DNA from: Sulfuricella denitrificans
GTDB taxonomy: Bacteria > Pseudomonadota > Gammaproteobacteria > Burkholderiales > Sulfuricellaceae
Assembly (NCBI GenBank): GCA_002632355.1
Contig: NSJJ01000013.1
Location: 31,438 to 95,437, forward strand
Direction of reading: 5' to 3'
Length of the DNA: 64,000 nucleotides
The position numbers were made by a program, and so were the translations under genes. Below are positions 1,926 through 19,034 of the stretch, piece after piece; the first letter of the stretch is position 1; each line of letters starts with the position of its first letter. The notes below the pieces were generated by a model, which was not told the origin of the DNA, did not search any database, and saw only the letters and a list, made by a program, of their open reading frames with translations.

Positions 1926-1996
1926 CCTCTAACTGGATGATCAGGTATATAATTACGCCCTGATATTTTTTAAGCACCGTTTGAAGCGCCTGACAA

Positions 1997-2308: not shown

Positions 2309-2360
2309 GCGCCTGCTGCTTGGCGTCGCAAACACCTGCTTTGGCAGTTAAAGGAATGCA

Positions 2361-3614: not shown

Positions 3615-3615
3615 C

Positions 3616-3637
3616 CGGGCGTGACTACACGCCCGGC
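3616..3637. terminator. Hairpin between convergent genes
   Basis: A perfect 9-bp stem (CCGGGCGTG / CACGCCCGG) with loop ACTA directly follows the stop codon of the nitronate monooxygenase-like gene. It has no T-run, so it is not a classic intrinsic terminator, but its place between two convergent genes fits transcript-end formation. A second hairpin (AATGCC-TTCC-GGCATT, 3651-3666) follows and would be read at the 3' end of the opposite-strand HPP gene. Confidence 0.4.
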
Positions 3638-3686
3638 CGTCACCCCGTAAGAAATGCCTTCCGGCATTCCGTCTCCCTGATTCTTC

Positions 3687-4424
3687 CTAAGCGGCGCCCA
3701 GTCGACGGGGCACGTCATTGTGGCGAACAGCCAGATGGTAAATCTGCAGCAAATCCTCTTCAGTCACATCAATGAAAGAATCCATTTCCGACAAGGCATA
3801 CACGAGATCACTGTGGGCGATCATGCACTTCTCCGGATTCCCCTGAGGCGCAACGACAGGCGTTTCTTCCCGTGAAGACAGCCACTCAGGATAACGTCTC
3901 CAGCGAAAAGGGTAGTTAGCGGCAATCGCAACGATCAGAATGATCAGCACATTGGCCAGCACCGGCGTGATAAGAAAGCTGTAACCCAGGGCACGAACCG
4001 GTTCTCCTCCCAGTACAGCGACCAGTGCCGTTGCTCCGCCCGGCGGATGGAGACAACGGAGATAGTGCATGGCGCCGATGGACAAGGCTACCGCCACAGC
4101 CCCCGCATAAAATGGATTTACCAGAAACTTGGCGCAGGTGACGCCGATGAAGGCGGAAATCAGATGGCCGCCCAATAACGCCCATGGCTGAGACAACGGG
4201 CTATGCGGGGTGGCAAAAAGCAGCACGGCGGATGCGCCCATCGACGCGACCACGAGGGCAACGCCGTGAAAATCCAGCACCTGGCCACTCACCATCAGCA
4301 CCAGCAGGATACCCACGAAGCCGCCCACCGTCGAAATCAACTTTTCGGCGTGGCTGGCAGGATGAGCGTCGCGGCTGCGCAAACCCATCCAGAAGTGCCG
4401 TATTACATTAGCAACCCTTTTCAT
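3687..4424 (-). CDS. HPP family integral membrane protein
   Basis: A 245-residue inner-membrane protein of the HPP family. It carries four to five hydrophobic helices in the first ~165 residues and the signature HPPGGATALVAVLGG that names the family. Some cyanobacterial and plastid HPP proteins act in nitrite transport, but most bacterial members are untested. Many relatives carry CBS domains at the C-terminus. Here there is only a ~60-residue cytosolic tail (SDLVYALSEMDSFIDVTEEDL...) of no recognised fold. It is divergent from the LysR gene across a 142-bp regulatory gap. Confidence 0.8.
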   Translation of the reverse strand: MKRVANVIRHFWMGLRSRDAHPASHAEKLISTVGGFVGILLVLMVSGQVLDFHGVALVVASMGASAVLLFATPHSPLSQPWALLGGHLISAFIGVTCAKFLVNPFYAGAVAVALSIGAMHYLRCLHPPGGATALVAVLGGEPVRALGYSFLITPVLANVLIILIVAIAANYPFRWRRYPEWLSSREETPVVAPQGNPEKCMIAHSDLVYALSEMDSFIDVTEEDLLQIYHLAVRHNDVPRRLGAA

Positions 4425-4514
4425 ATCACTCCCTACGCAGAAAAATATTGCGATAACGCTTCAAACATGCTTTCGAATTACGTGTGGCAATCAGAGTAGA
4501 TTTTTCTCATGTAT

Positions 4515-4553
4515 TTGACAAACGATATATTTTGCTATTATCTATCGAATAAT
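4515..4553 (+). promoter_or_regulatory. Sigma70-like promoter with LysR-type dyad
   Basis: A consensus -35 TTGACA (4515-4520) is followed 17 bases later by TTATCT, or 15 bases later by TATTAT. Overlapping the -10 is a perfect dyad ATTAT-N7-ATAAT (4537-4553), which has the T-N11-A form of LysR-family boxes. It lies just upstream of the LysR gene start, so autoregulation is a reasonable inference. No binding data exist. Confidence 0.5.
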
Positions 4554-4566
4554 CCGATATAAAGAC

Positions 4567-5472
4567 ATGCCCATGGATATTGAATCTGCCCGCACTTTTC
4601 TGGCTGTCGCGGCAGCCGGAAATTTTGTAGGCGCTGCGCAACGCCTGTACGTGACCCAATCGACCGTCAGTGCCCGCATACAGACGCTGGAGAACCAGCT
4701 TGGGGCGACCCTGTTCAGGCGCGGCCGGAGCGGTGCCGAATTGACCCCGGCAGGCCACCGTTTTCTGCGCCATGCCAAGACGCTGGTGCAGACGCTGGAA
4801 CAGGCCAAACACGATGTCGGCCTGCCCGCGGGTTTCCGGGGAAGCCTGACCCTGAGAGGGCGTATCGCCTTGTGGGATGGGTTTTTACCCCAATGGGTAG
4901 GCCGAATGAGGGAAACCTCTTCCGACATTTCTCTCCGCCTGGAAGTCGGCTTCGAGGAAGACATCATGCAAGGACTGGTGCAGGGCACAGTGGACGTAGG
5001 CATGATGTTCACGCCCGAAAGCCGGCCCGGCCTTGGAATAGAACGACTTTTCGAGGAGGTGCTGGTACTGGTTGCGACAGAACCTTCCAGGCCATGGCCA
5101 GACCCTGGCTACATCCACATGGACTGGGGAGCGGAATTTCATGCCCAATTCACAACCGCTTTTCCGGATATTCCGCCACCAGCAATCACTGCCAATATCG
5201 GCTGGCTGGCAATGCAGCAGATTCTGCACTGTGGCGGCTCAGGCTATTTCCCCATGCGTACGATCCGTGACCTCATCGACCAGGGGCAGTTATGGCTGGC
5301 GCAAAACAGTCATTCATTTTCACTACCTGCCTATATGGTATTCCCGGTAGACCGCAAGGAAGACATGCTGCTCAGAGCGCTGGACAGCTTGCGCACGCTC
5401 GGTGCCGAAGAACGTGTAGCCAGCGCCGCTGGCCTGGATAGCATCATAAATAAACAGGAATCCCATGGTTGA
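4567..5472 (+). CDS. LysR-family transcriptional regulator
   Basis: A 301-residue regulator. The N-terminal winged helix-turn-helix is clear (ARTFLAVAAAGNFVGAAQRLYVTQSTVSARIQTLE, then LGATLFRRGRSG and LTPAG within residues ~5-70). The remainder is a periplasmic-binding-protein-like effector domain. A second in-frame ATG two codons downstream is an alternative start. Its 3' end overlaps the start of the cation/proton antiporter gene by 8 bases, so the regulator and transporter are translationally coupled. The natural inference is that it senses a condition linked to ion or pH balance. The effector is unknown. Confidence 0.9.
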   Translation: MPMDIESARTFLAVAAAGNFVGAAQRLYVTQSTVSARIQTLENQLGATLFRRGRSGAELTPAGHRFLRHAKTLVQTLEQAKHDVGLPAGFRGSLTLRGRIALWDGFLPQWVGRMRETSSDISLRLEVGFEEDIMQGLVQGTVDVGMMFTPESRPGLGIERLFEEVLVLVATEPSRPWPDPGYIHMDWGAEFHAQFTTAFPDIPPPAITANIGWLAMQQILHCGGSGYFPMRTIRDLIDQGQLWLAQNSHSFSLPAYMVFPVDRKEDMLLRALDSLRTLGAEERVASAAGLDSIINKQESHG

Positions 5473-7288
5473 ACATACTCTGATCAGCCTGAGCGCGGTT
5501 GTCGTGCTCGGCATCACGGCGCAGTGGCTGGGCTGGCGCCTACGCATGCCGTCGATTCTGCTGCTGCTGATTTTCGGCATTCTCGCCGGGCCCATCCTCG
5601 GCTGGATCAGGCCCGGCGAAATGATGGGGCCAATGCTTTACCCGGTGGTATCGCTGGCAGTGGCAGTCATTCTTTTCGAAGGCGGATTATCGCTTTCGCT
5701 CAAGGAATTCCGTGCCATCGGAGGCGTGGTTCTGCGACTGGTGACGCTGGGCATGATGGCCGGGTGGCTGATCATTTCCCTGGCAGCTTACTGGGTGCTC
5801 GGCCTGTCGTGGCAACTGGCGACACTGCTGGGCGCCGTGCTGATAGTCACCGGGCCCACCGTGATTTCACCCATGCTCAGGCATGTGCGCCCGACAGGCC
5901 AGAGCGGGGCAATTCTGAAATGGGAGGGCATCGTCATCGATCCTATCGGCGCCATGCTCGCGGTGCTGGTATTCCAGGCCATCGTACTCTACGAAACCGA
6001 AGCCGAGCCCGTTGCTGCCGTCATGCTCAGCCTGCTCAGAACCGTTGCCGTCGGCGCCGGCACAGGGCTGACCGGGGCACTGGGAATGATCCTGCTGCTG
6101 CGACGCGAATGGATTCCCGACTTTCTGCAAAACCCTGTGGCACTGATGTTCGTCGTCGCTGTTTTTACCGGAGCCAACCTGCTACAGACCGAAGCCGGGC
6201 TGCTGGCGGTAACGATCATGGGTTTCGCCATGGCCAATCAGCGCAAGGTTTCGATTCAGCATATCGTCGAATTCAAGGAAAACCTCGGCGTGATGCTGAT
6301 CGCCTTTATCTTTATATTGCTGGCGGCGCACCTCAAACATGCCGACCTCGACCATATCGGTTTTTCCAGCTTTTTTTTCCTGGCCATTTTGATTCTTGTT
6401 GCCAGGCCTGTATCCGTCTTTCTTTCGACCCTGGGCACACGTTTAAGTCGACAGGAAAAAATCTTTCTTTCATGGATGGCGCCACGAGGCATCGTAGCCG
6501 CTGCCGTGGCTTCCATTTTTGCGCTGCGTCTGGAAGAAGTGGGTTTGCCGGGCGCCGATGTGCTCGTTTCCCTCACTTTTTTCGTCATTATCGGGACAGT
6601 CACCGTGTACGGGCTTACGGCAGGAATGGTTGGAAAACGCATGGGACTGGCACAGGCTAATCCGGAAGGGGTGATTTTCCTGGGCGCACGCTTCTGGGCA
6701 CGGCGCATCGCCAGGTCGCTTCAGGATGAGGGTTTCCCGGTCATGCTGGTGGACAACGACCTGCATAACGTCCTTGCAGCCAGGATGGAGGGCCTGCCTG
6801 TATTTTACGCCAGCATATTTGCGGAAAACGTGCTCGATCAGGTGGAACTCGGTGGCATCGGGAAGTTGCTGGCCCTGACCAGCAACGATGATGCCAACTC
6901 CCTTGCGGCGATGCATTTTGCAAGGGTTTTCGAACGTTCCCAGATATTTCAGCTGGCCCCGGAAGAAAGCAAGCTGGCTACAGAGGTTTCTCCCCACCTG
7001 CGAGGGAGAACGGTATTCGGAGATAGCATTACCCACTCAGAGCTGACACAACGTTTCCTGGGGAACTGGGTGATCAAGAAAACCCGTCTCTCCAGGGATT
7101 TTGATTTCGAGGCACTGAAAGATTACTATCTTGGGAATGTGCTGCCTTTATTTCTGATCAGCGAGTCTGGTCGCCTGCGTATTTTTGCAGCCGACATGCC
7201 ATTGTCCCCGCAACCGGGCGATACCCTGCTAAGTCTGGTGCAGCCTAAAAATGAGGACAAGCCCGTTCCGCAGCAGTCGCTGCAATAA
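5465..7288 (+). CDS. CPA1-type cation/proton antiporter with TrkA-N domain
   Basis: A 607-residue membrane protein. Residues ~1-385 hold about twelve hydrophobic helices of the monovalent cation:proton antiporter fold (for example GPTVISPMLRHVRP and the WMAPRGIVAAAVAS helix). From ~395 a cytosolic TrkA-N/RCK-like domain follows (GVIFLGARFWARRIARSLQDEG, VMLVDND), expected to bind a nucleotide and gate transport, and then a TrkA-C-like tail. Such proteins exchange Na+ or K+ for H+. The specific ion cannot be read from sequence. It overlaps the upstream LysR gene by 8 bases. Confidence 0.87.
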   Translation: MVEHTLISLSAVVVLGITAQWLGWRLRMPSILLLLIFGILAGPILGWIRPGEMMGPMLYPVVSLAVAVILFEGGLSLSLKEFRAIGGVVLRLVTLGMMAGWLIISLAAYWVLGLSWQLATLLGAVLIVTGPTVISPMLRHVRPTGQSGAILKWEGIVIDPIGAMLAVLVFQAIVLYETEAEPVAAVMLSLLRTVAVGAGTGLTGALGMILLLRREWIPDFLQNPVALMFVVAVFTGANLLQTEAGLLAVTIMGFAMANQRKVSIQHIVEFKENLGVMLIAFIFILLAAHLKHADLDHIGFSSFFFLAILILVARPVSVFLSTLGTRLSRQEKIFLSWMAPRGIVAAAVASIFALRLEEVGLPGADVLVSLTFFVIIGTVTVYGLTAGMVGKRMGLAQANPEGVIFLGARFWARRIARSLQDEGFPVMLVDNDLHNVLAARMEGLPVFYASIFAENVLDQVELGGIGKLLALTSNDDANSLAAMHFARVFERSQIFQLAPEESKLATEVSPHLRGRTVFGDSITHSELTQRFLGNWVIKKTRLSRDFDFEALKDYYLGNVLPLFLISESGRLRIFAADMPLSPQPGDTLLSLVQPKNEDKPVPQQSLQ

Positions 7289-7344
7289 AAACGCATTGAC
7301 ATCACCTGACACCCCGAAGCTATTAACCACATAGAACCCATCTC

Positions 7345-8232
7345 ATGCCTGAATTTTCCCCCGAAACAGATTCCTTCATCGCCGAATTTGATGCCGCCAT
7401 CGAAGCGCACATGGAATGGACGCAACGAATTCTGCGCTGTGCGGTGCTGCATGCATCACCCGGTGATGATGTGCTGGCGCCCATGGCGCATAATCTGTGC
7501 CGGTTCGGGCGCTGGTTTGCATCGAACAGGGCACATTTCGATGTCATCGATGCCGATGCCGTGCAACGTGTCGAAACTTTCCATCAAACCATGCATGACG
7601 CCATTCGGGCCATCTGCGCCAACGTCATGACTGGAAGACCTGGGCAGAGCGCCGATCTGGAAGCTTTCGAGCAATCGCAGTCCGAACTGCTTGCCCTGCT
7701 TGCCCGGCTAAAAACACTAACGCTGTCCAACGCCGTGCGGCACGATCCGCTGACCGGCCTGCCTCTTCGCTACGGTGTTGAAAACGATTTCACGCTATGC
7801 CAGAAGGACGCCAGGCGCAACCACACGCTGCTGTATGTCGCGATGATCGACATCGATCATTTCAAACTCATCAACGACAATTATGGCCACCCGCAGGGCG
7901 ATCTGGTGTTGCGCAACCTGGCGGCCACTTTGAAAAGTGCACTGAGAAGCAATGACCCGCTTTACCGTTTTGGCGGCGAGGAGTTCCTGTGGCTGATGCG
8001 TTGCCAATCACAGGAAGAGGCTGAACAATTGGCGCAAAGAATTGTAGCCACGGTCAGCACGACGCCCGTCCCCGTCGCCGGTGGCGCTTCTTTGAGTCTG
8101 ACCATCACGCTCGGCCTGGCACGGGTAGGTCCAGAGGAAGACATTGCCAGTGCAATCAAACGCGCCGATGAAGCACTTTACGAGGGTAAAAGAAGCGGGC
8201 GCAATCGTTATGTCATGGCGGATATGGGGTGA
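7345..8232 (+). CDS. Diguanylate cyclase with zinc-binding CZB domain, DgcZ-like
   Basis: A 295-residue soluble enzyme that should make c-di-GMP from two GTP. Residues ~8-125 form a chemoreceptor zinc-binding (CZB) domain with candidate ligands H22, C52, H80 and H84, almost the spacing known in E. coli DgcZ, where zinc inhibits the cyclase. Residues ~130-292 are a full GGDEF domain with active-site GGEEF at 210-214 and an inhibitory-site R201-x-x-D204 five residues before it, so product feedback is expected. There is no membrane segment. It stands alone, 56 bases behind the antiporter gene. Confidence 0.9.
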   Translation: MPEFSPETDSFIAEFDAAIEAHMEWTQRILRCAVLHASPGDDVLAPMAHNLCRFGRWFASNRAHFDVIDADAVQRVETFHQTMHDAIRAICANVMTGRPGQSADLEAFEQSQSELLALLARLKTLTLSNAVRHDPLTGLPLRYGVENDFTLCQKDARRNHTLLYVAMIDIDHFKLINDNYGHPQGDLVLRNLAATLKSALRSNDPLYRFGGEEFLWLMRCQSQEEAEQLAQRIVATVSTTPVPVAGGASLSLTITLGLARVGPEEDIASAIKRADEALYEGKRSGRNRYVMADMG

Positions 8233-8261
8233 CCAGGGCGTGTTAATACTGGCTTTACGCC

Positions 8262-10757
8262 CTAGCCCAGCTTGCCCAGCGTTTGCAACGGCGGCTGATG
8301 CAGCACGCCTCGCGTCCCGATCCAGCCCGCCAGGGTCACACCCAGTATGCCGACCGTCAGGGCAATAAACCACAACCAGGGGTTGAAGTGGTAAGGCAAA
8401 TGAAATGCCTGTGTCGCCAGCACATAACCCAGGCCGGTCGCGGCCAGGGCGGACACGACCCCGGCCAGCAGGCCGATCAGGATGAATTCTGCCAGCTGGC
8501 TCAGCAGGAGTTGCCGGCCACTCGCGCCCAATGTCCGCATCACTGCAGCCTCGACCATGCGCTCCTCGCGGGTCGCAGCAATCGCCGCATACAAGGCCAT
8601 CAGGCCGGCTGCCAGGGTAAACAGGAACACGAATTCCACAGTTGAGGCAATCCGCTCCATCATGGCGCGTACCTGATTCATCAATGCAGCCACGTCAATC
8701 ACGGTCAGGTTGGGAAAAGCCCTGACCATATCGTTAAGCAGTGCTTCATCCCCCGCAGGCAAATAGAAAGCCGTGATGTAGCTGGCAGGGTAGGCCTCCA
8801 GCAAGACGGGCGTGGCGATAACGAAGAAGTTGACGCGGAAGGAATCCCAGTCGACCTTGCGCAGGCTGGTGACCTTGGCGCTGAAGCTTTGCCCTGCCAC
8901 CTGATAAGTCAGGGTATCACCGAGGCGGATGCCAAGGTTCTTGGCGATGCCCTCTTCCACCGACCACTGGGCCGTGCCAGCGTGATTTGTTTCCCACCAG
9001 CGCCCGGCGACGATCTGATTGTCACTCTGCAGCCGCTCGGCCCAGGAGAGGTTGAACTCCCGTTCCACCAGGCGCCGGGTCCGCTCTTCAGCATAATCCC
9101 CAGCAGATATTTCACGGCCATTGATGGCCATCAAACGCCCGCGCACCATGGGGAACAGTTGCGGGGAAGCCATGCCCCGGGCAGCAAGAAAATTCCGGAT
9201 CAATGGCACCTGATCCGGCTGAATGTTGATGACGAAACGATTGGGGGCGTGCATGGGCAGGGTGCTCTGCCAGCTGCGCAACAGGTCGCCGCGCACCAGG
9301 GTCAGGAGCAGCAGCGCCGTCAGTCCCAGTGCCAGCGCCACTACCTGGCTGGCACTGGCATGACGACGCCGCACCAGGTTTGAAAGGCCATAACGCCACG
9401 TTATACCCACCAGGCCCGCCCTGCTTCTCAACGGTGACAGCCCCCTGATCAGGACATGCGTCAACAGCAGCCCCACCACAACGACAGCCGTCAGCCCTGC
9501 CAGCACGTAAAGCCCCAGCCTGAGCTCGCCCGCCTGCCACAGCAGCATGGCCAGCAACACGGCCACCCCGGCGGAAAACCCCGCCAGACTGTGCCCCTGC
9601 GCCCCCCCAAGTTCGCGCCGCAGTACCCACAAAGGGGGAACGCGCTTCAAACGCTGCAGGAAAGGCAGGGAAAATCCCAGCAGCGTGGCCATCCCGGTCA
9701 GGAGGCCGTAGCCCAGCGGGACCCATGAGGGCTCGGGCAGACCGGCAGCAATCAGCCCGCCCAGTTGGCGCGCCAGCACCCATTGCGCGCCATAGCCGAG
9801 CAAACAACCTGCCAGGCTGGCCAGCATCCCCAGCCACAGAAACTGGTACAGATAAAGCCGGAATACCTGCCCCTGACTCGCCCCGCTGCAGCGCATCACG
9901 GCACAGCCATCCAGATGGCGTTCAAGGAAGCGCCGCGCCGATAGCACAATCGCCACTGCGGCCAGAATCAGGCTGGTGAGCGCGGCCAGGTTGAGGAACT
10001 TGCCGCCGCGTTCAAGCGCCGAACGGATCTCGGGACGGCCGTCGCTGACGCCTTCGAGCTTCTCGCCCCGCGCCAGGCGGGGCACTGCCCATGCCCGGTA
10101 AGCGGCGATCGCCTGAGGACGCCCGGCCAGCAGGAGACGGTAATGGATGCGGCTGCCGGGCTGGATCAGGGCAGTGGCAGATAGGTCCTGCGCATTCATC
10201 ATCAGGCGGGGCGCGATGCTGAACATGTCGCCGCCGCGATCCGGTTCAAAACGAAGTGCCGCCGCCACTTTGAGGCGCGCAGACCCGAGTTCCAGGGCAT
10301 CGCCCACCGCCAGGTGCAATTGCGCCAGCAGGCGATCGTCCAGCCAGACCGTGCCGGGAGCCGGAATAGCCTCCGCAACCCGTTCGCCTTCCCCGGAGCG
10401 GATGCGCAGCTTGCCGCGCAACGGGTATCCGGGCGCCACCGCCTTGATTTCCGCCAGCTGGTTGCCCGTGGCGCTGACCACCATGCTCGGAAAGGTGAGG
10501 ATGCGCACCGGCGTCAGGCCGCGCAAATGCGCTTCCGCAAGGAATTCGCGCTTCACCTCATGATCTGCAGCCAGCACCAGATCGGCCGCCAGCAACTGGC
10601 TGGCTTCGGTCGTCAGGGCCTGGTTGACGCGGTCGGTGAAGAAGCCCACGGCGGTCACCCCGCCCACGGCAATGAGCAACGCCAGCGTCAGGGCGTAAAG
10701 CTCCCCTGCCCGCCATTCGCGCAGCAGCATGCGCCAGGACAGCCGCAGCAGGCTCAT
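8262..10757 (-). CDS. ybbP: YbbP-type ABC transporter permease
   Basis: An 831-residue permease with the architecture of E. coli YbbP: an N-terminal helix (ALTLALLIAVGGVTAVGFF), a large periplasmic MacB-like region, a first FtsX-type four-helix block near residues 260-430, a second periplasmic region, and a second FtsX block at ~710-830. It pairs with the ATPase encoded immediately upstream; the two overlap by 4 bases. YbbA-YbbP systems belong to the MacB/LolCDE-like mechanotransmission ABC class, and their substrate is not settled. The divergent tesA neighbour is conserved in E. coli. Confidence 0.88.
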   Translation of the reverse strand: MSLLRLSWRMLLREWRAGELYALTLALLIAVGGVTAVGFFTDRVNQALTTEASQLLAADLVLAADHEVKREFLAEAHLRGLTPVRILTFPSMVVSATGNQLAEIKAVAPGYPLRGKLRIRSGEGERVAEAIPAPGTVWLDDRLLAQLHLAVGDALELGSARLKVAAALRFEPDRGGDMFSIAPRLMMNAQDLSATALIQPGSRIHYRLLLAGRPQAIAAYRAWAVPRLARGEKLEGVSDGRPEIRSALERGGKFLNLAALTSLILAAVAIVLSARRFLERHLDGCAVMRCSGASQGQVFRLYLYQFLWLGMLASLAGCLLGYGAQWVLARQLGGLIAAGLPEPSWVPLGYGLLTGMATLLGFSLPFLQRLKRVPPLWVLRRELGGAQGHSLAGFSAGVAVLLAMLLWQAGELRLGLYVLAGLTAVVVVGLLLTHVLIRGLSPLRSRAGLVGITWRYGLSNLVRRRHASASQVVALALGLTALLLLTLVRGDLLRSWQSTLPMHAPNRFVINIQPDQVPLIRNFLAARGMASPQLFPMVRGRLMAINGREISAGDYAEERTRRLVEREFNLSWAERLQSDNQIVAGRWWETNHAGTAQWSVEEGIAKNLGIRLGDTLTYQVAGQSFSAKVTSLRKVDWDSFRVNFFVIATPVLLEAYPASYITAFYLPAGDEALLNDMVRAFPNLTVIDVAALMNQVRAMMERIASTVEFVFLFTLAAGLMALYAAIAATREERMVEAAVMRTLGASGRQLLLSQLAEFILIGLLAGVVSALAATGLGYVLATQAFHLPYHFNPWLWFIALTVGILGVTLAGWIGTRGVLHQPPLQTLGKLG

Positions 10758-11440
10758 GCTGCCGCCAGATGCCCGTCCACCAGCCGCAGTCTGCGGCTGC
10801 AGCGGGCCGCCAGTTCGGCATCGTGGGTGACCAGCACCAGGGTGGTACCCTGTTCGCGATTCAGTTCGAACAGGAGATCGATGATCCGCGCGCCGGTCGC
10901 GCTATCGAGATTGCCGGTGGGCTCGTCGGCGAGCAACAGTTCGGGCTGTGTCGCGAAGGCGCGCGCAATGGCGACGCGCTGCTGCTCGCCGCCGGAAAGA
11001 TGTTTCGGGTAGTGTTGCAGGCGTTCGCTCAACCCCACCCGGTGCAGGACAGCCAGCGCCTTTTCGCGCGCCGCCGGGCTGCCTGCCAGTTCCAGCGGCA
11101 GCATGACATTTTCCAGCGCGGTCAGGGCGGGCAGCAGCTGGAAGGACTGGAACACGAAGCCGATCAGGCGCCCGCGCAGGGCGGCACGCTCATCTTCGTC
11201 GAGCGTGAACAGATTTTTCCCGTTAATCTGCACCTCGCCGCTGCTGGGCAGATCCAGCCCCGCCAGCAGGCCGAGCAGCGTGGACTTGCCCGAGCCCGAT
11301 GCGCCGAGAATGGCGACCGACTCGCCACGGGCAATTTCCAGATCGAGCCGGTGCAGGATGGTCAGCACGCCATCGCCTACCGGCACTTGCCTGGACAGAC
11401 GGCTCGCCTGCACAATGAGGGAGGAATTAGGAGAGTTCAT
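10754..11440 (-). CDS. ybbA: YbbA-type ABC transporter ATPase
   Basis: A ~228-residue LolD/MacB-class ATPase with Walker A GASGSGKST, Q-loop FVFQSFQLLPALT, signature LSGGEQQRVAIARAF, Walker B LLLADEPTGNLD and the switch His in LVTHD. A longer reading frame reaches 11506, but the start at MNSPNSSL (11440) fits the family N-terminus. With this start, its ATG lies inside the same CATG as the divergent tesA start. No clear Shine-Dalgarno site precedes it. It pairs with the overlapping YbbP permease gene. Confidence 0.88.
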   Translation of the reverse strand: MNSPNSSLIVQASRLSRQVPVGDGVLTILHRLDLEIARGESVAILGASGSGKSTLLGLLAGLDLPSSGEVQINGKNLFTLDEDERAALRGRLIGFVFQSFQLLPALTALENVMLPLELAGSPAAREKALAVLHRVGLSERLQHYPKHLSGGEQQRVAIARAFATQPELLLADEPTGNLDSATGARIIDLLFELNREQGTTLVLVTHDAELAARCSRRLRLVDGHLAAA

Positions 11441-12044
11441 GCGGATTCGCTGGTTATTGTATGCATTGCTGTTAATCGCTCCCTCGGCCTGGGCCGGACA
11501 GACCATCCTGGTATTCGGCGACAGCCTCTCGGCCAGTTACGGCATTGCAACCGGGGCGGGCTGGGTGAGTTTACTGCAACAGCGCCTCGACCGTAAGGCG
11601 CATGACCACAGCATCGTCAATGCCAGCATCAGCGGCGAAACCACAGCGGGCGGGGCGTCCCGCATCGAGGCCGCGCTCGATGCCCACCAGCCGGAGATCG
11701 TGATCATCGAACTGGGCGCCAATGACGGGCTGCGCGGGCTTTCCCTTGAGGCTACCCGACGCAATCTGGACAGCATCATGCAAAGCTGCCGTGATCACAA
11801 GGCGCGCATCCTGCTCATCGGCATGCGCCTGCCGCCCAATTACGGCCCCGCCTACACCGAAGGTTTTGCCGCGATCTATCCTGATCTGGCAAAAAAATAT
11901 CATGCCGCCCTGCTGCCCTTCCTTCTGGATGGGATTGCAGGGAAGCGCGATTGGTTCCAGGCCGACAACCTCCATCCCACGGCAGCGGCACAGCCGGTGA
12001 TCATGGAAAATGTCTGGATCAAACTGAAGCCGCTGCTGCAATGA
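11439..12044 (+). CDS. tesA: TesA-like multifunctional acyl-CoA thioesterase / lysophospholipase
   Basis: A 201-residue periplasmic SGNH hydrolase. A signal peptide (MRIRWLLYALLLIAPSAWA) precedes the mature start GQTILVFGDSLSASYG, which carries the catalytic Ser in GDSLS. Block III is GANDG, and the catalytic Asp-His pair lies in DNLHPT near residue 180. TesA enzymes hydrolyse acyl-CoA, lysophospholipids and esters. The start is set by the signal peptide and an AGGAG site just upstream. It overlaps the arginase gene by 4 bases (ATGA), so the two are translationally coupled. Confidence 0.9.
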   Translation: MRIRWLLYALLLIAPSAWAGQTILVFGDSLSASYGIATGAGWVSLLQQRLDRKAHDHSIVNASISGETTAGGASRIEAALDAHQPEIVIIELGANDGLRGLSLEATRRNLDSIMQSCRDHKARILLIGMRLPPNYGPAYTEGFAAIYPDLAKKYHAALLPFLLDGIAGKRDWFQADNLHPTAAAQPVIMENVWIKLKPLLQ

Positions 12045-12919
12045 AACCGGTCGAAATCATCGGGGTTGCATCAGGACTTGGCGCGCGCGACCCAGGTTGC
12101 GCCGCAGGCCCGGGCAGCGTGGAACAATCCGGCCTCGTGCCCGGACTGCGGCAGCAGGCTTGCGATATTGCCTGGCGCACCACCCTGCACCCCGCCACCG
12201 GACTTTCTCCACTGGCCGGTATCCAGGTACTGTGTGCTGACCTGGCCCGGGAAGTCCGCACCACCATCGACCACAACAGGCTGCCGCTGGTCATCGGCGG
12301 CGATCATTCCTGCGCCATCGGCACCTGGAGCGGCGCGGCGCAGGCACTCAGGGAACAGGGAGCGCTCGGCCTGATCTGGATCGACGCCCACATGGACAGC
12401 CATACCCCGCAAACCACGCCCAGCGGCGCGATCCACGGCATGCCCCTGGCGGTGTTGCTGGGCTTCGGCGCGCCGGAGCTGGTCGATATCACGAACTTCA
12501 GCCCGAAAATACTGCCAGCCCATGTTTGCCTGATCGGCGTGCGCAGCTTTGAGTCAGGCGAAGCGAATTTGCTGCAGCGCCTCGGCGTGCGGATTTTTTT
12601 CATGGCAGAAGTGAAACAGCGCGGCATCGCCGCCGTCATGGCCGAGGCGCTCACTATCGCCCAGCACGGCACGGCGGGCTTCGGCATCAGCATCGATCTT
12701 GATGCCTTCAACCCGAAAGAAAGTCCGGGCGTGGGCACGCCGGTAGGACATGGACTGCATCATCTGGCACTGGACAAGACTTTGCGGGGGATCTTGCACC
12801 ACCCCCGGCTGGTCGCTCTGGAACTGGCAGAATACAACCCGCTACGCGACCAGAATCAACGCAGCCTCAGGCTTGTAGAGGATTTGCTCGGTGCTTTTTG
12901 CCGTCAGAACAAAACTTAA
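12041..12919 (+). CDS. rocF: Arginase-family ureohydrolase
   Basis: A 292-residue cytosolic binuclear manganese hydrolase. The metal-ligand motifs are all present: GGDHS, DAHMD and SIDLDAFNP. The SGAIHGMPLAVLLG block is typical of arginase rather than agmatinase or formimidoylglutamase. Arginase cleaves arginine to ornithine and urea. The ATG overlaps the tesA stop, and at the other end its TAA shares a TTAA with the stop of convergent msrA. Other ureohydrolase specificities remain possible. Confidence 0.82.
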   Translation: MKPVEIIGVASGLGARDPGCAAGPGSVEQSGLVPGLRQQACDIAWRTTLHPATGLSPLAGIQVLCADLAREVRTTIDHNRLPLVIGGDHSCAIGTWSGAAQALREQGALGLIWIDAHMDSHTPQTTPSGAIHGMPLAVLLGFGAPELVDITNFSPKILPAHVCLIGVRSFESGEANLLQRLGVRIFFMAEVKQRGIAAVMAEALTIAQHGTAGFGISIDLDAFNPKESPGVGTPVGHGLHHLALDKTLRGILHHPRLVALELAEYNPLRDQNQRSLRLVEDLLGAFCRQNKT

Positions 12920-13485
12920 CGCTGCTTCAGCTTTCCTGCGAATCTGGCCCGCAATTTGGCCACTTTGGGCGCCACGACCACCTGGCAATAGGGCTGCTGT
13001 GAATTCCGGCTGAAATAATCCCGGTGGTAATCTTCCGCCGGGTAGAAAACCGGTGCAGGGAGCACCTCGGTCACAATCGGATAATCCCATATGTGCTCTC
13101 TGGAAAGCGCGTCAATCATTTCCTGTGCCGCGACCTCCTGTTCTGCTGAATGATAGAAGATCACCGATCGGTACTGCGTTCCGGCATCGTTGCCCTGGCG
13201 GTTCAGGGTAGTGGGGTCATGGACGGTGAAAAAAGCCGTCAGCAACTCCCGGTAACTGATAACTGATGGATCAAAGCTCACCTGCACGACTTCGGCATGC
13301 CCCGTATTGCCGCTACATACGGCCTCATAATCGGGATCATCCACCAGGCCGCCACTGTAGCCGGAAACCACCCTGGTGACGCCATCGAGTTCGTTGAATG
13401 CGGCTTCCAGGCACCAGAAACAGCCGCCACCAAACGTGGCAAGCTCGGAATTCAGATTCATTTCATGCACCGCCATTGAAGTCAT
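12916..13485 (-). CDS. msrA: Peptide-methionine (S)-S-oxide reductase MsrA
   Basis: A 189-residue cytosolic repair enzyme that reduces methionine-S-sulfoxide in proteins. The catalytic motif GGCFWCLEAAF lies near residues 19-29 with the active Cys at 22; conserved GYSGG and the GHAEVVQVSFDP block follow. MsrA usually recycles through C-terminal cysteines, but here the C-terminus (VAKLRARFAGKLKQR) has none, so resolution may involve C25 or an external thiol. Several in-frame Met codons occur in the first nine residues, and the true start among them is uncertain. It converges on the arginase gene with overlapping stops. Confidence 0.92.
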   Translation of the reverse strand: MTSMAVHEMNLNSELATFGGGCFWCLEAAFNELDGVTRVVSGYSGGLVDDPDYEAVCSGNTGHAEVVQVSFDPSVISYRELLTAFFTVHDPTTLNRQGNDAGTQYRSVIFYHSAEQEVAAQEMIDALSREHIWDYPIVTEVLPAPVFYPAEDYHRDYFSRNSQQPYCQVVVAPKVAKLRARFAGKLKQR

Positions 13486-13593
13486 TCATGGGCCATTCTA
13501 TTCATTTATGACCTGTCCGGACAAAGCAATTCCATAAAATATTTCTTCTTTATATTGAAGTATATTCGGATATTCTTATCTACATAGATCGCA

Positions 13594-13690
13594 GAGTTTA
13601 AACTCTTTCTAAAGCCGTTCTAAACCTGTAATCTTCGCGTTGCAAAATGGACGTGGTGTTTGTAACAAACCAATTGAATCGGGAGACTCA
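13594..13690 (+). promoter_or_regulatory. Promoter/operator region of the octaheme cytochrome operon
   Basis: The 207-bp gap between msrA and the DUF302 gene is AT-rich and carries several dyads: a perfect 12-bp palindrome GAGTTTAAACTC (13594-13605), a TTCTAAA-gccg-TTCTAAA direct repeat just after it, and GTTTG-TAA-CAAAC (13658-13670). A weak -35-like TTGCAA at 13640 is the best promoter guess. GGGAG before the ATG serves as ribosome site. These could be operators for a redox or sulfur regulator; none matches a box I can name. Confidence 0.4.
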
Positions 13691-13692
13691 AA

Positions 13693-14241
13693 ATGCTAAA
13701 AATTCTAAGTGGTTTCTTATTGGGGCTGATTTTTGTTGCTTTTCTAGGCTATAACATGGCCCCCGGCCTGATGTTCCATGAGCGCGTAAGCCCTTATGGT
13801 CTTGAGGAAACAGTCGCACGCATACAGCAGAACATTGAAGAAACTGGCAATGGCTGGTCCCTCTCCGGTCTGCGCAATCCTGCCAAGGCAGTGCAGAAAG
13901 ATGGCAGCAACACCCTGCCGGTCCTGATGATCGAAGCCTGCAGCACCAAATACTCCGGCCCGATCCTGAAAGACGACTCCGTGCGTTACCTGTCCATCCT
14001 GATGCCCTGCAAAATTTCCGTCTATCAGAAAAACGATGGCAAGACCTACATCGGCAACATGAATGCCGGTCTGATGGGCAAGATGTTCGGCCCTATGGTT
14101 GGTGAAGTCATGGGGCATGTCGCTGCAGATCAGGCCAAATTCCTTGAATTCGACCCCAACAAGCCCGCACCTCAGATGAAGGTGGGTACGCCGGGCGGTG
14201 GTGGTGCTGGTGGTGCTGCCGGTGGTGGTGGTGGCTGCTAA
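13693..14241 (+). CDS. DUF302 domain protein, membrane-anchored, Gly-rich tail
   Basis: A 182-residue protein with an N-terminal hydrophobic anchor (ILSGFLLGLIFVAFLGY), a DUF302 domain at ~30-150 (start GLEETVARIQQNIEE, core PVLMIEACSTKYSGPILK, then LMPCKISVYQ) and a tail made almost only of Gly and Ala that ends in Cys. It is probably periplasmic and tethered. DUF302 proteins often neighbour sulfur-metabolism and haem-protein genes, but their activity is unknown. It is the first gene of a three-gene operon with an octaheme cytochrome and a cytochrome b, suggesting an accessory role in that enzyme. Confidence 0.8.
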   Translation: MLKILSGFLLGLIFVAFLGYNMAPGLMFHERVSPYGLEETVARIQQNIEETGNGWSLSGLRNPAKAVQKDGSNTLPVLMIEACSTKYSGPILKDDSVRYLSILMPCKISVYQKNDGKTYIGNMNAGLMGKMFGPMVGEVMGHVAADQAKFLEFDPNKPAPQMKVGTPGGGGAGGAAGGGGGC

Positions 14242-14283
14242 TAGCGCCAGGCACACATCTCGAATCAGAATTCAGGAGGAATC

Positions 14284-15963
14284 ATGTTAAACAGAAAAAA
14301 ATTCATGGCCTGGGCACTTGCCGTCGGCAGCACGCTGACAGCAGTGACCGTTCTGGCCACATCGGCGCCCACGGCGGCGCCGTCCATGGCACCCGCTGCG
14401 GCTCCTGTCGTTGCGGCAGTCCCGGCGATCCCGGCAGCAGAGGTCAAGAAAGTTTCGACCTCGACGGCCGACCACAGCAAATTCAAGGAGCTGCAAAAGG
14501 ACTTCAAGGAAGGCCCGGAAGTGACCAAGGCTTGCCTGAGCTGCCACACCGAGGCAGCCAAGCAGGTGCAGCACACCAAGCACTGGACCTGGGAATTCCT
14601 GAATCCGGATACCAAGCAGCGTCTGGGCAAGAAGAACGTCATCAACAACTTCTGTACCGCTGTGCCATCGAACTACCAGTTCTGTACCGCCTGCCACGTT
14701 GGCTACGGCTGGAAGGATGACAAGTTCGACTTCAGCAAGCAGGAAAATGTGGACTGCGTTGTCTGCCACGACACCACCGGCAAATATCGCAAACTGCCCG
14801 GTCTTTCCGGCCATCCGCCCTATGAGGATACAGAGTTCCCTCCGCATTCAGGCAAAATCGTCAAGGCAGTTGATCTGAAGGATGTGGCGCAGCACGTGGG
14901 CAAGACTTCCCGCGCCACCTGTGGAGCCTGTCACTTTTATGGTGGCGGCGGCGATGCGGTGAAGCACGGAGATATCGACAGCACGCTGACAAATCCCGGC
15001 AAATATCTGGATGTGCACATGGCCAAGGATGGATTGGATTTCACCTGCGCCACCTGCCATGCGACCACCGGGCATAACGTATCCGGCAGCCGTTACACGC
15101 CGACCGCCATGGCCAAGGAAAAAGCCCACCTGCGCGGCAAGGCGGATAACAGCAATCCCGCCACCTGTCAGGCCTGCCACGGCACGACGCCTCATCCAGC
15201 GGACAAGCCCAAGCTGAACGAACATACTGCCAAGATTGCCTGCCAGACCTGTCACGTTCCTGAATTTGCCCGTGGCCAGGCCACCAAGATGAGTTGGGAC
15301 TGGTCAACCGGTGGCAAGATGAAAGATGGCAAGCCCTTTACCGAAAAGGACTCTGCTGGCAAGAACGCCTATGACAGCAAGAAGGGTAACTTCACCTGGC
15401 AGCATGACGTGATCCCGGAATACGTCTGGTTCAACGGCAAGGTGGATTACACCCTGCGTGAAACCAAACTGGACCCGAGCAAGGTCGTGAAGATCAATAC
15501 CATGAATGGCAGCCCGACCGATGGCAAATCCATGATCTGGCCGATGAAGGTATTCCGCGGCAAGCAACCCTATGACGCAGGAAATAACCAGCTGGTGGTA
15601 TTCCATACCTACGGCAAGGACGACAGTGCGTACTGGGGCAACTTCAACTGGGACAAGGCGCTTGAATACGGCATGAAGGAAATTGGCGCGGAATACAGCG
15701 GCAAATACGCCTTCGCCGAAACCGAAATGTCCTGGCCGATTACCCACATGGTTGCACCCAAGGGTGATGCACTGACCTGTGCGCAGTGTCATGACGCCAA
15801 GACAGGTGGTCGCCTGAAAAACGTCAGCGGACTCTATATGCCGAGCACTGATCGCCAGAACAAATGGCTCGATATGGGTGGCTGGGCACTTGCCCTCCTG
15901 ACCCTGCTCGGGGTGATCATCCACGGTGCCGGCCGCATCTACATGAGCAACAGGAAAGGATAA
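14284..15963 (+). CDS. Octaheme c-type cytochrome, tetrathionate reductase (OTR) family, membrane-anchored
   Basis: A 559-residue exported multihaem cytochrome. A signal/anchor segment (residues ~5-27) and an Ala/Pro linker (~28-52) precede eight CxxCH haem sites with haem-binding His at 88, 138, 162, 217, 259, 299, 324 and 503. The large gap before the eighth haem and the overall layout match the OTR family, whose Shewanella member reduces tetrathionate, nitrite and hydroxylamine in vitro. Unlike that soluble protein, this one ends in a predicted membrane helix (~532-550) and Arg/Lys tail. AGGAGGA precedes the ATG. It is followed 4 bases later by its likely cytochrome b partner. Confidence 0.9.
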   Translation: MLNRKKFMAWALAVGSTLTAVTVLATSAPTAAPSMAPAAAPVVAAVPAIPAAEVKKVSTSTADHSKFKELQKDFKEGPEVTKACLSCHTEAAKQVQHTKHWTWEFLNPDTKQRLGKKNVINNFCTAVPSNYQFCTACHVGYGWKDDKFDFSKQENVDCVVCHDTTGKYRKLPGLSGHPPYEDTEFPPHSGKIVKAVDLKDVAQHVGKTSRATCGACHFYGGGGDAVKHGDIDSTLTNPGKYLDVHMAKDGLDFTCATCHATTGHNVSGSRYTPTAMAKEKAHLRGKADNSNPATCQACHGTTPHPADKPKLNEHTAKIACQTCHVPEFARGQATKMSWDWSTGGKMKDGKPFTEKDSAGKNAYDSKKGNFTWQHDVIPEYVWFNGKVDYTLRETKLDPSKVVKINTMNGSPTDGKSMIWPMKVFRGKQPYDAGNNQLVVFHTYGKDDSAYWGNFNWDKALEYGMKEIGAEYSGKYAFAETEMSWPITHMVAPKGDALTCAQCHDAKTGGRLKNVSGLYMPSTDRQNKWLDMGGWALALLTLLGVIIHGAGRIYMSNRKG

Positions 15964-15967
15964 GATC

Positions 15968-16567
15968 ATGTCTGAAAAAATCTATGTATTCAAAGTCTTC
16001 GAGAGGTTCTGGCACTGGTCTCAGGCCTCGCTCATCATCTTCATGCTGATTACCGGCTTCGAGGTGCATGGCTCCTACCATCTCTTAGGCTTCGCCAAGG
16101 CGGTGAGCCTGCATACTATCGCCGCCTGGACCCTGGTTAGCCTGTGGGTGTTCGCCATCTTCTGGCACTTCACTACCGGCGAGTGGAAGCAGTACATCCC
16201 GACCCTGGACAAGGTGGTAGCCATGGTCAAGTACTATTCCGTCGGGATCTTCGTCCATGCGCCCCACCCCTTCCGCGCAACCACGCTGAAGAAGCATAAC
16301 CCGCTGCAACGCCTGGCCTATCTCGGCGTGCTGCTGTTCATCGGGCCATTGCTGTGGTTCTCGGGTTGGTTCTATCTGTTCTTCGGCGACTGGAACGCAT
16401 GGGGCGTGGACAAATATGTCTCTCTCGAATGGGTGGCGTTCTTCCATACCGCAGGCGCATTCATGATGCTGCTGTTCCTGATCGCCCACGTTTACCTGAC
16501 GACAGCCGGTCATACCCCGACGGCTCACATCAGGGCCATGATTACCGGCTGGGAAGAAGTGGATTAG
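15968..16567 (+). CDS. Cytochrome b, quinone-linked membrane partner of the octaheme cytochrome
   Basis: A 199-residue inner-membrane cytochrome b561/hydrogenase-type subunit with four hydrophobic helices. Candidate haem b ligands are H16, H49, H160 and H174, located in the helices as the family requires. Such subunits carry electrons between the quinone pool and periplasmic redox partners. The four-base gap to the octaheme gene and the membrane anchor of that cytochrome argue for a quinol-octaheme reductase (or the reverse) complex. The direction of electron flow is not known. The operon ends here at a strong terminator. Confidence 0.87.
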   Translation: MSEKIYVFKVFERFWHWSQASLIIFMLITGFEVHGSYHLLGFAKAVSLHTIAAWTLVSLWVFAIFWHFTTGEWKQYIPTLDKVVAMVKYYSVGIFVHAPHPFRATTLKKHNPLQRLAYLGVLLFIGPLLWFSGWFYLFFGDWNAWGVDKYVSLEWVAFFHTAGAFMMLLFLIAHVYLTTAGHTPTAHIRAMITGWEEVD

Positions 16568-16596
16568 AGTCTCCCTCCCTCCACCCCGACCGGTGG

Positions 16597-16625
16597 CCGG
16601 GCAGTGAAAACTGCCCGGTTTTTTT
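16597..16625 (+). terminator. Intrinsic terminator of the octaheme cytochrome operon
   Basis: An 8-bp GC-rich stem (CCGGGCAG / CTGCCCGG) with loop TGAAAA is followed by seven T residues. It lies 30 bases after the cytochrome b stop codon and just before the 3' end of convergent lon. The T-run is on the plus strand only. Confidence 0.9.
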
Positions 16626-16643
16626 ATGTCCGGATAAGCGGCT

Positions 16644-19034
16644 TTATCCCTTTTCGGGGAAAACGACCTTCACCACATCCTTGAACTGTTTAGCGAAGTG
16701 GACCTTGACCCCCGCCCGGATGTGATCCGGCAACTCGTCAAAATCGCGCCGGTTGGCCTCGGGCATGATCAGTTCCATGATCTTGACGCGTCTTGCGGCA
16801 ATGACTTTCTCGCGCACGCCGCCAATCGCCAGCACTTCGCCGGTCAGGGTCAGTTCGCCGGTCATGGCCAGAGGCCGGGCGATTTTCTGGTTGCGCGCAA
16901 GGGAGAGCAGCGCCGTCGCCATGGTGACGCCAGCACTGGGGCCATCCTTGGGCGTGGCACCCTCGGGCAGGTGCAGGTGCACGAAGGCCTCGTCGAAGAA
17001 TTTCAGATCACCCTTGTACTCCTTGAGGTGAGACGAGATATAGCTGTAGGCAATTTCGGCAGACTCCTTCATCACGTCGCCGAGCTGACCGGTGAGCTTG
17101 AAACCGCGGTTGCGGGTATGCACCCTGGTCGCCTCAATTGAAAGGGTGGTTCCTCCCATCGCGGTCCATGCCAGCCCGGTAATCACGCCGATACCGCTAA
17201 GCGGCTTCTCCTGGGTGAATACCGGCTTGCCCAGGTAATCCTCCACCTGAGCAACGTTGATGCGAGACACTTCTTCATCTCCGCTCATGCGCTTCACCAC
17301 CGACTTCCTGACCAGGCGACCAAGCTGTTTCTCCAGGTTGCGCACACCGGCTTCGCGCGCATAGCCATCGATCACGTGCTTCAGTGCCACATCGCTGATA
17401 GACAACTCGCCGCGCTTGAGGCCCGTTTTTTCCAGTTGCTTGGGCCACAAGTGGTGTTTGGCAATCGCCACTTTCTCGGCAGTGATGTAGCCCGACAGCC
17501 GGATCACTTCCATGCGGTCGAGCAAGGGCCCGGGAATGGTGTCGAGCTGGTTGGCGGTACAGACGAACAAGACTTTGGACAAATCAAAGCGCACGTCGAG
17601 GTAATGATCGAGAAAATCGCTGTTCTGCTCCGGGTCGAGCACTTCCAGCAGGGATGAGGCCGGATCGCCATGATAGGAGGCGCCGATCTTGTCCACTTCA
17701 TCGAGCATGATGACCGGATTCTGCGTGTCGCATTCCTTGATGGCCTGAATAAATTTGCCCGGCATGGCGCCGATATAGGTGCGCCGATGGCCCTTGATCT
17801 CGGCCTCGTCGCGCATGCCGCCAAGCGAGAAACGGTAGAACTTGCGCCCCAGCGCATCGGCGATGGAACGCCCGATGGAGGTCTTGCCCACGCCGGGCGG
17901 GCCCACCAGCAACACGATGGAACCAGCGATTTCACCTTTCAGCGCACCCACCGCGAGGAATTCGATAATGCGCTCCTTGACGTCCTCCAGACCGTCATGA
18001 TCGCGGTCGAGAATCTTGCGCGCGCGCTTGAGGTCGAGCTTGTCCTTTGAATATTTTCCCCATGGCAGTTGTGTCAGCCAGTCGAGGTAGTTGCGCGTAA
18101 CGGCATATTCCGGCGATCCGGTTTCGAGCAGGGAAAGTTTCTGCATCTCCTCGTCTACGCGCTTCTGCGCTGCCTCTGTCAGCTTGAGCTTGGTGAGGCG
18201 CTCCTGAAAACGCTCGATCTCGGCTGTCTTGTCATCCTTGGCGAGGCCCAGTTCCTTCTGAATCGTCTTCAACTGCTCGCGCAGGAAAAACTCGCGTTGC
18301 TGCTTGGTCATTTTCTCATCGACCTGCTCACGAATCTGCGACTGCAGACGGGCGACATCCAGCTCCTTCTTGATCAGCACCAGCACCTTTTCCATGCGGC
18401 GGCGCAGATTCAGGGCTTCCAGCACATCCTGCAACTTTTCCTTGGAGGCCGTGGTGAGGGAAGCGGCAAAATCGGTCAGCAAGGACGGCTCGTTCGGGCT
18501 GAAGCGATTCAGAAAAAATTTAAGCTCCTCGCTATACAGGGGGTTGAGCGGCAAGAGCTCCTTGATGGAATTGATGATCGCCATCGCATAGGCCTTCACC
18601 TCGTCGCTATTGGCGCCCCGGCTGTCACTGATGTATTCCACCTGCGCCAGGTATGGCGCCTTTCTGGATAACCATTTGACGATACGAAAACGCCGCTGGC
18701 CTTCAGCGATGAACTGGATCTTGCCCTCGGTGCGCACCGGATGGTGCATGTGCACTGCAGTCCCGGTGGCATAAAAATCCTGAGGCGTGACGTCGTCGGC
18801 AGAGTTGGGCCGCACCAGCACCAGGCCGACCATCTTGTGCTCGGTCTCGCCGATTTTTTCCACCGTTTCCAGCCATGGCCCCATATTCATCAGCAGGGGC
18901 AGGGTCTGGGCGGGGAAAAATGGCCGTTCGGTAAGCGGTAACAGGTACAGGGTATCGGGCAACACCTGTTGTTGCAGCGCCAGTTCGGTAGACTCGATCA
19001 CTTCACCTTCAATCGCTTCATTTGCTTCGGGCAT
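16644..19034 (-). CDS. lon: ATP-dependent Lon protease
   Basis: A 796-residue cytosolic AAA+ serine protease that degrades misfolded and regulatory proteins. It has the N-terminal LON domain (LPLTERPFFPAQTLPLL, EGQRRFRI), a coiled-coil segment, Walker A GPPGVGKTS, Walker B VIMLDEVDK, and the protease domain with catalytic Ser in GPSAGVTMA and Lys in the GGVREKVIAARR block. A longer frame reaches 19094, but MPEANEAIEGEV (19034) is the likely start because residues before it do not resemble Lon. A heat-shock-type promoter sits just upstream. Confidence 0.93.
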   Translation of the reverse strand: MPEANEAIEGEVIESTELALQQQVLPDTLYLLPLTERPFFPAQTLPLLMNMGPWLETVEKIGETEHKMVGLVLVRPNSADDVTPQDFYATGTAVHMHHPVRTEGKIQFIAEGQRRFRIVKWLSRKAPYLAQVEYISDSRGANSDEVKAYAMAIINSIKELLPLNPLYSEELKFFLNRFSPNEPSLLTDFAASLTTASKEKLQDVLEALNLRRRMEKVLVLIKKELDVARLQSQIREQVDEKMTKQQREFFLREQLKTIQKELGLAKDDKTAEIERFQERLTKLKLTEAAQKRVDEEMQKLSLLETGSPEYAVTRNYLDWLTQLPWGKYSKDKLDLKRARKILDRDHDGLEDVKERIIEFLAVGALKGEIAGSIVLLVGPPGVGKTSIGRSIADALGRKFYRFSLGGMRDEAEIKGHRRTYIGAMPGKFIQAIKECDTQNPVIMLDEVDKIGASYHGDPASSLLEVLDPEQNSDFLDHYLDVRFDLSKVLFVCTANQLDTIPGPLLDRMEVIRLSGYITAEKVAIAKHHLWPKQLEKTGLKRGELSISDVALKHVIDGYAREAGVRNLEKQLGRLVRKSVVKRMSGDEEVSRINVAQVEDYLGKPVFTQEKPLSGIGVITGLAWTAMGGTTLSIEATRVHTRNRGFKLTGQLGDVMKESAEIAYSYISSHLKEYKGDLKFFDEAFVHLHLPEGATPKDGPSAGVTMATALLSLARNQKIARPLAMTGELTLTGEVLAIGGVREKVIAARRVKIMELIMPEANRRDFDELPDHIRAGVKVHFAKQFKDVVKVVFPEKG

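Follow-up and report, generated by a model that had tools for sequence, protein, structure and literature searches.

Octahaem cytochromes c of the OTR (octaheme tetrathionate reductase) family have been studied since 2004, and their physiological substrate and partner are still unsettled. Here we describe an OTR operon in a 64,000-nucleotide stretch of Sulfuricella denitrificans DNA (contig NSJJ01000013.1), which as a whole is called the window below. On the forward strand, a gene encoding a DUF302 protein is followed by the genes for an OTR and a cytochrome b, and then by a terminator. In vitro, OTR reduces nitrite and hydroxylamine (PMC4484225), and the purified enzyme from a member of the Beggiatoaceae reduces nitrite as well as tetrathionate, the latter at up to 93 µmol per min per mg (PMC6449678). 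In marine Acidobacteriota otr was up 36-fold at day 8 after tetrathionate addition, and the same source quotes +198 mV for the tetrathionate/thiosulfate couple (PMC8528874).

Two described systems have the same OTR-cytochrome b neighbourhood as the window operon. For Thermosulfurimonas dismutans (TDIS_1882/1883) a membrane link of OTR through the adjoining cytochrome b was proposed in 2016 (PMC4911364), and in the Beggiatoaceae the OTR BOGUAY_2386 has a thiosulfate-reductase-type cytochrome b downstream (PMC6449678). The pairing is thus real but already known. The accessible parts of these two papers mention neither a DUF302 protein nor a cysteine-tipped protein for these OTRs. With the Shewanella oneidensis enzyme (PDB entry 1sp3) the window OTR shares eight haem sites and aligned active-site-equivalent residues. 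That enzyme is described as soluble (PMC6449678), whereas the window OTR has a helix at its C-terminus and is accompanied by a dedicated cytochrome b and by a partner with a cysteine tip.

This partner is the DUF302 protein, which ends in a glycine-rich, predicted disordered arm with a cysteine as its very last residue. Our preferred reading is that the three proteins of the operon form one quinone-linked system, in which the cysteine at the tip of the arm carries a sulfur group that OTR acts on; we put its probability at slightly below one half. The tip cysteine is a likely sulfur carrier because most related operons encode either a DUF302 protein or an unrelated protein that is also cysteine-tipped.

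Cysteine-tipped proteins beside OTR

Related loci were taken from a species-wide scan (one genome per species, 84,980 species) that matched at least 593 stretches, of which at least 580 are relatives. We used the best 80 loci, a sample that leans to near relatives. They come from Sulfuricellaceae, Gallionellaceae, Rhodocyclales, Burkholderiales and other groups, and many are metagenome-assembled genomes (MAGs) from groundwater or other environments. We also used a set of 41 relatives, a class sample drawn independently (274 genomes) and a phylum sample (269 genomes), in each of which the window's own genome is counted. Neighbour genes were called with a codon-usage caller, as length-based calling gave antisense artefacts in GC-rich loci.

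Score and fold both place the window protein in the DUF302 family. It matches PF03625 with 38.8 bits (cut-off 23), and its structure model consists of a helix (residues 2-27), a DUF302 core and an arm (167-182) that is predicted to be disordered, with a predicted local distance difference test score (pLDDT) below 50. The top Foldseek match of the model is 1q9u, a DUF302 structure, with a TM-score of 0.80 by target length. The sequence-only reading of this DNA had correctly placed a tethered DUF302 protein upstream of OTR; it missed the cysteine-tipped arm, the feature that gives the protein a likely role.

Two core cysteines (Cys83, Cys106) and the tip cysteine (Cys182) are invariant in 51 aligned sequences. 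All 35 operon copies of the DUF302 protein end in a cysteine, preceded by a stretch rich in glycine and alanine whose sequence varies. A terminal cysteine is also present in 120 of 120 homologues among the matches listed (of 1154) from a search made without OTR; 119 of these end in GC and one in AC, each with a single cysteine in its last 30 residues. As a background, the last residue is cysteine in 5 of 793 other complete neighbour genes, and a cysteine stands in the last two positions in 10. The canonical DUF302 proteins compared here are alike in core fold and core cysteines, but are about 130 residues long and have neither the membrane helix nor the cysteine-tipped arm; all four keep both core cysteines and end before any arm would begin. 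In Acidithiobacillia a gene of the DUF302 family lies between soxA and soxB (PMC5037610).

In the genomes sampled, the arm was found only beside OTR. Sixteen genomes of the relatives set have a strong DUF302 match (at least 286 bits), and all 16 of these genes end in cysteine and lie directly upstream of OTR, which in G016 is a fragment at the contig end. The arm is missing from two weaker DUF302 paralogues in G014, and the terminal cysteine is absent from the armless membrane DUF302 paralogues at L152 and L153. An OTR without DUF302 is found in G006 and G040; in G002, G003, G007, G008 and G013 it is a second copy. PF03625 as such matches in 174 of the 274 class-sample genomes. A profile of the arm-bearing form matched in 20 of them; six are arm-bearing, and all six copies adjoin OTR, while 14 other loci (L214-L227) show no terminal cysteine and no OTR within a flank of about 1.5 kb or less on each side. 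Three more class-sample matches break off in the profile before the arm is complete. Of the 269 phylum-sample genomes, 15 were matched. Two copies are arm-bearing; that of the window stands beside OTR and that of G517 beside a multihaem open reading frame (ORF) with seven CxxCH motifs in the part present, and seven armless loci are not beside OTR. Overall, the arm-bearing DUF302 protein adjoins OTR in 22 of 22 different sampled genomes, and 23 armless relatives show neither the arm nor an adjoining OTR.

DUF302 was rejected as an obligatory third subunit, being present in 35 of 81 OTR loci. A further 22 loci have a monohaem cytochrome c, 11 have a 106-residue protein without family, one has both of the latter, and 12 have none of the three. 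Thus, 34 of the 46 loci without DUF302 have another cysteine-tipped protein. The cytochrome c has a penultimate cysteine in all 23 locus copies and in 119 of 120 homologues among the matches listed (of 1481), the exception looking frame-shifted. The 106-residue protein has cysteine, its only one, as last residue in 12 of 12 copies. The other genes of the non-DUF302 loci encode a PF04143 transporter, a rhodanese, a DUF3373 porin and an ArsR regulator, and the porin recurs as a pair with the 106-residue protein beside OTR-cytochrome b at several loci (within L056-L103). Among the 12 carrier-less loci the contig is cut at the carrier's place in eight (L059, L062, L066, L071, L088, L093, L095, L100), and L086 is short and doubtful.

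A quickly built tree of 104 OTRs shows how these proteins are distributed. One clade, with a support value of 99 (SH-aLRT, the Shimodaira-Hasegawa-like approximate likelihood ratio test), holds 81 of the 104 rows, including 36 of 37 DUF302 rows and every cytochrome c and 106-residue row. Its eight rows without carrier, and the doubtful row L158, are all cut by the contig end on the carrier side. Outside the clade are L091 (with DUF302), L086, L089, L098, L102 and 18 distant rows without any of the three carriers. On this topology at least two changes of carrier would be needed. Both operon types are joined at L154 (G013:C1:1160500-1177500; 4618-13030, minus strand), where the order is DUF302, OTR, cytochrome b, cytochrome c, transporter, rhodanese, OTR, cytochrome b, with two OTR-cytochrome b pairs. 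L034 and L059, which belong to one metagenome bin, have OTRs among betaproteobacterial tree rows. At L199, in a distant OTR lineage, a different c-type cytochrome just upstream ends in RFCN, again with a penultimate cysteine.

We found no paper with both octaheme tetrathionate reductase and DUF302 in a search that left subscription literature mostly uncovered, so that absence from print does not follow; a related search for earlier print, with the same limit, matched PMC11237559 alone.

The octahaem cytochrome and its cytochrome b

The window OTR scores 628.8 bits against TIGR04315 (cut-off 375), covering positions 1-440 of the 440 in the model, and has eight CxxCH sites. Its residues 70-507 align with 1sp3 (E 1.2e-115), and Asn121, Cys124, Asp224 and Lys227 fall on residues 61, 64, 150 and 153 of that structure. 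We take Asn61, Cys64, Asp150 and Lys153 of 1sp3 to line the active site with its lysine-ligated haem. The protein belongs to the OTR family by its eight motifs as well as by the three residues (lysine, cysteine, aspartate) expected around the active-site haem. For two relatives, tetrathionate reductase activity is known from published work. Asn121, Cys124 and Lys227 show no variation among the 104 OTRs compared. Apart from those in the haem motifs, the window OTR has a single cysteine, Cys124. Position 224 (14953-14955 of the window) is aspartate in 91 and asparagine in 13, of which 11 are DUF302-type.

A signal-peptide-like segment at the N-terminus, judged by sequence, agrees with the signal or anchor proposed by the sequence-only reading. 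So does a single hydrophobic helix after the haem sites, which appears both in hydropathy and in the structure model; the latter, built from 16 sequences, is poor (mean pLDDT 46) and was used for this helix only. The post-haem helix exceeds the hydropathy threshold in 70 of 81 OTRs and is present at 1.25-1.59 in ten more; the remaining case, L095, is cut by the contig end. The predicted C-terminal membrane helix is therefore no peculiarity of the window locus.

The cytochrome b matches PF01292 with 75.3 bits (cut-off 30.1) and begins 4 bases past the OTR stop. Eight histidines (His16, 34, 49, 67, 100, 110, 160 and 174) are conserved in at least 95% of 70 full-length copies. His16, His49, His160 and His174 are presumably haem ligands, by analogy with FdnI, and the conserved histidines would fit two b haems, the number that FdnI has. 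In 75 of the best 80 loci the cytochrome b gene follows OTR within 101 bases, and in the other five the contig ends 7-81 bases past OTR. OTR scored above the cut-off in 23 of 274 class-sample genomes, with a cytochrome b directly behind it in 22, the window genome included. The exception, G207 (L181/L208), lacks the adjoining cytochrome b and, by eye, also the C-terminal helix. Of the sub-threshold OTR matches, L183 and L184 have the cytochrome b and L182 (262 bits) does not.

OTR and cytochrome b are a fixed pair, and their constant linkage gives good support to a quinone-linked unit of the two, which was part of the earlier proposal; DUF302, confined to part of the loci, is not a universal subunit.

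Proposed carrier role, possible substrate and alternative readings

In the mechanism that we propose, the N-terminal helix of the DUF302 protein would keep the tip of its arm close to the membrane. Cys182 would enter the OTR active site, near Lys227 and the free Cys124 as placed by homology to 1sp3. There a thiosulfate or sulfane group would be joined to the tip or split from it, as a thiosulfonate or persulfide, and two electrons would pass through the eight haems and the cytochrome b to the quinone pool, or the reverse. The tip might be unloaded by the rhodanese in the cytochrome c and 106-residue operon types, and possibly by a thioredoxin-like protein found near many DUF302-type operons. 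As to direction, oxidation with electrons going to quinone is weakly favoured in this lineage because it has SoxB, while the potential of the tetrathionate couple (+198 mV) and the 36-fold induction of otr by tetrathionate favour reduction (PMC8528874).

An analogy is offered by the Sox system, where SoxY presents a cysteine on a swinging arm and SoxAX attaches thiosulfate to it by oxidation; SoxYZ conjugates have also been made by tetrathionate treatment (PMC5336275). SoxAX acting on SoxY may be likened to OTR acting on the DUF302 tip, with a c-type cytochrome as the enzyme and a cysteine on a flexible arm as the carrier. In contrast to Sox, OTR is octahaem and predicted to be membrane-linked, its electrons would go to quinone, and DUF302 and SoxY show no family match. 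The DUF302 protein failed as a candidate SoxY, as Pfam gives DUF302 only and the fold search also returns DUF302; at most it might work like one. TsdA, which we take to be dihaem and, unlike the OTR system, without an external carrier protein, is likewise a c-type cytochrome, active on the thiosulfate/tetrathionate couple. This thiosulfate dehydrogenase/tetrathionate reductase has a cysteine S-thiosulfonate intermediate (PMC4423706).

Several neighbours point to sulfur. All 23 loci with rhodanese and all 13 with the PF04143 transporter are of the cytochrome c or 106-residue type. The nearest NCBIfam models of the transporter include the thiosulfate transporter TsuA, and those of the ArsR regulator include the sulfite-sensing BigR, both below cut-off. 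Nineteen loci, 17 of DUF302 type plus L090 and L100, have a thioredoxin-like gene within seven genes of OTR, on the same or the opposite strand; 18 of the 19 show a CxxC. The tipped cytochrome c is also found away from OTR. At L234 (G085:C6:135500-148000; 473-6202, minus strand) it precedes, without OTR, a PhsA-like molybdoenzyme (524 bits, below the cut-off of 694), with further genes for a TtrB/DsrO-like iron-sulfur protein, an NrfD protein and a YedE/TsuA-type transporter. At L235 (G259:C33; 4316-7189, plus strand) it stands between a rhodanese-like gene and a transporter, in surroundings of NiFe hydrogenase and sulfhydrogenase-like genes. SoxB scores above the cut-off in 18 of 23 OTR genomes, compared with 94 of the 251 other genomes (Fisher p 2e-4, uncorrected for shared ancestry). 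In lucinid symbionts a divergent SoxY and soxZ adjoin otr (PMC11237559). The rhodanese and PF04143 genes of the sister operons and the SoxB co-occurrence allow the "sulfur or nitrogen" substrate of the sequence-only reading to be narrowed towards sulfur, although the points for nitrogen given below remain.

A number of observations weigh against a carrier of sulfur for OTR. Not one of the 35 DUF302-type loci holds the rhodanese or the PF04143 transporter, so that the operon type found in the window is tied to sulfur indirectly, by L154 and by kinship. Seven of the 23 OTR genomes in the class sample have a tipped protein beside OTR (DUF302 in six, cytochrome c in G122); in the other 16 none was seen, several of their contigs being short; L089, L098 and L102 are truly without one despite ample flanks. 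A carrier is therefore not required by all OTRs. The tail of the 106-residue protein is not glycine-rich, the cysteine of the cytochrome c is penultimate, and this cytochrome also occurs without OTR at L229 and L230, so it was rejected as an OTR-specific protein. The active-site placing of Asn121, Cys124, Asp224 and Lys227 leans on the work on 1sp3, and Asp224 varies. The SoxB co-occurrence is confounded by shared ancestry. The arm motif of SoxY-S3, which is encoded beside otr, carries several changes (PMC11237559), the in vitro reduction of free tetrathionate and nitrite by OTR needs no carrier (PMC6449678), and NapC/NrfH-type genes lie near OTR in four of the 81 loci.

In an alternative view, OTR and cytochrome b are a plain quinol:tetrathionate (or nitrite) reductase for free molecules and the tipped proteins act separately, for instance in sulfane scavenging or enzyme protection. 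In its favour are the activities of the purified Beggiatoaceae OTR on nitrite and, at up to 93 µmol per min per mg, on tetrathionate (PMC6449678), the potential of +198 mV, at which reduction by quinol would be favourable, the 36-fold rise of Acidobacteriota otr with tetrathionate (PMC8528874), and the 16 of 23 class-sample OTR genomes without a tipped neighbour. It does, however, leave unexplained why unrelated cysteine-tipped proteins swap at the operon and why the DUF302 arm is found only beside OTR in the sampled genomes, and we consider it rather unlikely. A second possibility accepts that the tip binds OTR but not that it carries substrate: as a structural or regulatory ligand it would bind the active-site haem or form a disulfide with Cys124 and so gate the enzyme. 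The invariance of this sole free cysteine in all 104 OTRs, matched by that of the tips, speaks for such a ligand. Yet Cys124 is equally invariant in the 18 distant OTRs, where none of the three tipped kinds was seen, and the tipped cytochrome c also accompanies the PhsA-like molybdoenzyme, which makes a gating role improbable.

A role in nitrite or hydroxylamine ammonification or detoxification appears to us slightly less probable again. OTR reduces both compounds in vitro (PMC4484225). The NapC/NrfH-type genes are three to six genes from OTR, at L051, L054, L076 and L078, the first two of DUF302 type, and the distant OTR-cytochrome b loci L190 and L192 adjoin multihaem cytochromes and a NapC-type gene. 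The multihaem neighbour at L190 has weak similarity, below cut-off, to hydrazine dehydrogenase, and these two loci are possibly a nitrogen variant. The commonest recurring partners in the 81 loci, on the other hand, are rhodanese, the PF04143 transporter and thioredoxin-like genes.

Extended beyond the window, the sulfur-carrier reading would make the one large OTR clade a group of enzymes of protein-bound sulfur, independent of Sox and linked to quinone, with three unrelated proteins, each of which would have acquired a tail tipped by cysteine, as interchangeable swinging-arm carriers. We advance this wider claim more tentatively than the one for the operon itself. If it is true, OTR would naturally act on a thiosulfonate or persulfide bound to a carrier, with tetrathionate, nitrite and hydroxylamine as surrogates, which would explain why the substrate of OTR has stayed unsettled. 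Besides Sox and Dsr there would then be another, unrelated way of handling sulfur on a carrier. A partner with an invariant cysteine tip that is swapped for other cysteine-tipped proteins in sister operons makes the question of the OTR substrate directly testable.

Features and edges of the operon

The coordinates of the operon features are collected in Table 1.

Table 1. Features of the OTR operon, in window positions
Feature	Position	Strand	Basis
DUF302 protein, 182 aa	13693..14241	+	PF03625 match; helix 2-27, core, arm ~167-182
Glycine-rich arm codons, residues 167-182, with C-terminal cysteine	14191..14238	+	operon copies, homologues, model
Octahaem cytochrome c, OTR (TIGR04315) family, 559 aa, 8 CxxCH	14284..15963	+	
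Predicted OTR C-terminal membrane helix, residues 527-557	15862..15954	+	hydropathy, model helix
Cytochrome b, 199 aa, PF01292	15968..16567	+	profile match, conserved histidines
Intrinsic terminator, 11-pair stem then T run	16595..16620	+	

The operon had been credited with its own promoter region and its own terminator. The terminator is present, whereas no sigma-70-like promoter was seen on the plus strand in a scan of 13480-16700. As no upstream dyad was common to more than four of the 35 DUF302-type upstream regions either, a promoter motif was dropped. The flanking ORFs, which we take to be an msrA-like gene upstream and a lon-like gene downstream, both lie on the opposite strand, and the operon therefore stands alone. 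The source genome (G000) is 3.09 Mb in size, and the closest named relatives of its OTR are from Sulfurimicrobium and Sulfuricellaceae MAGs.

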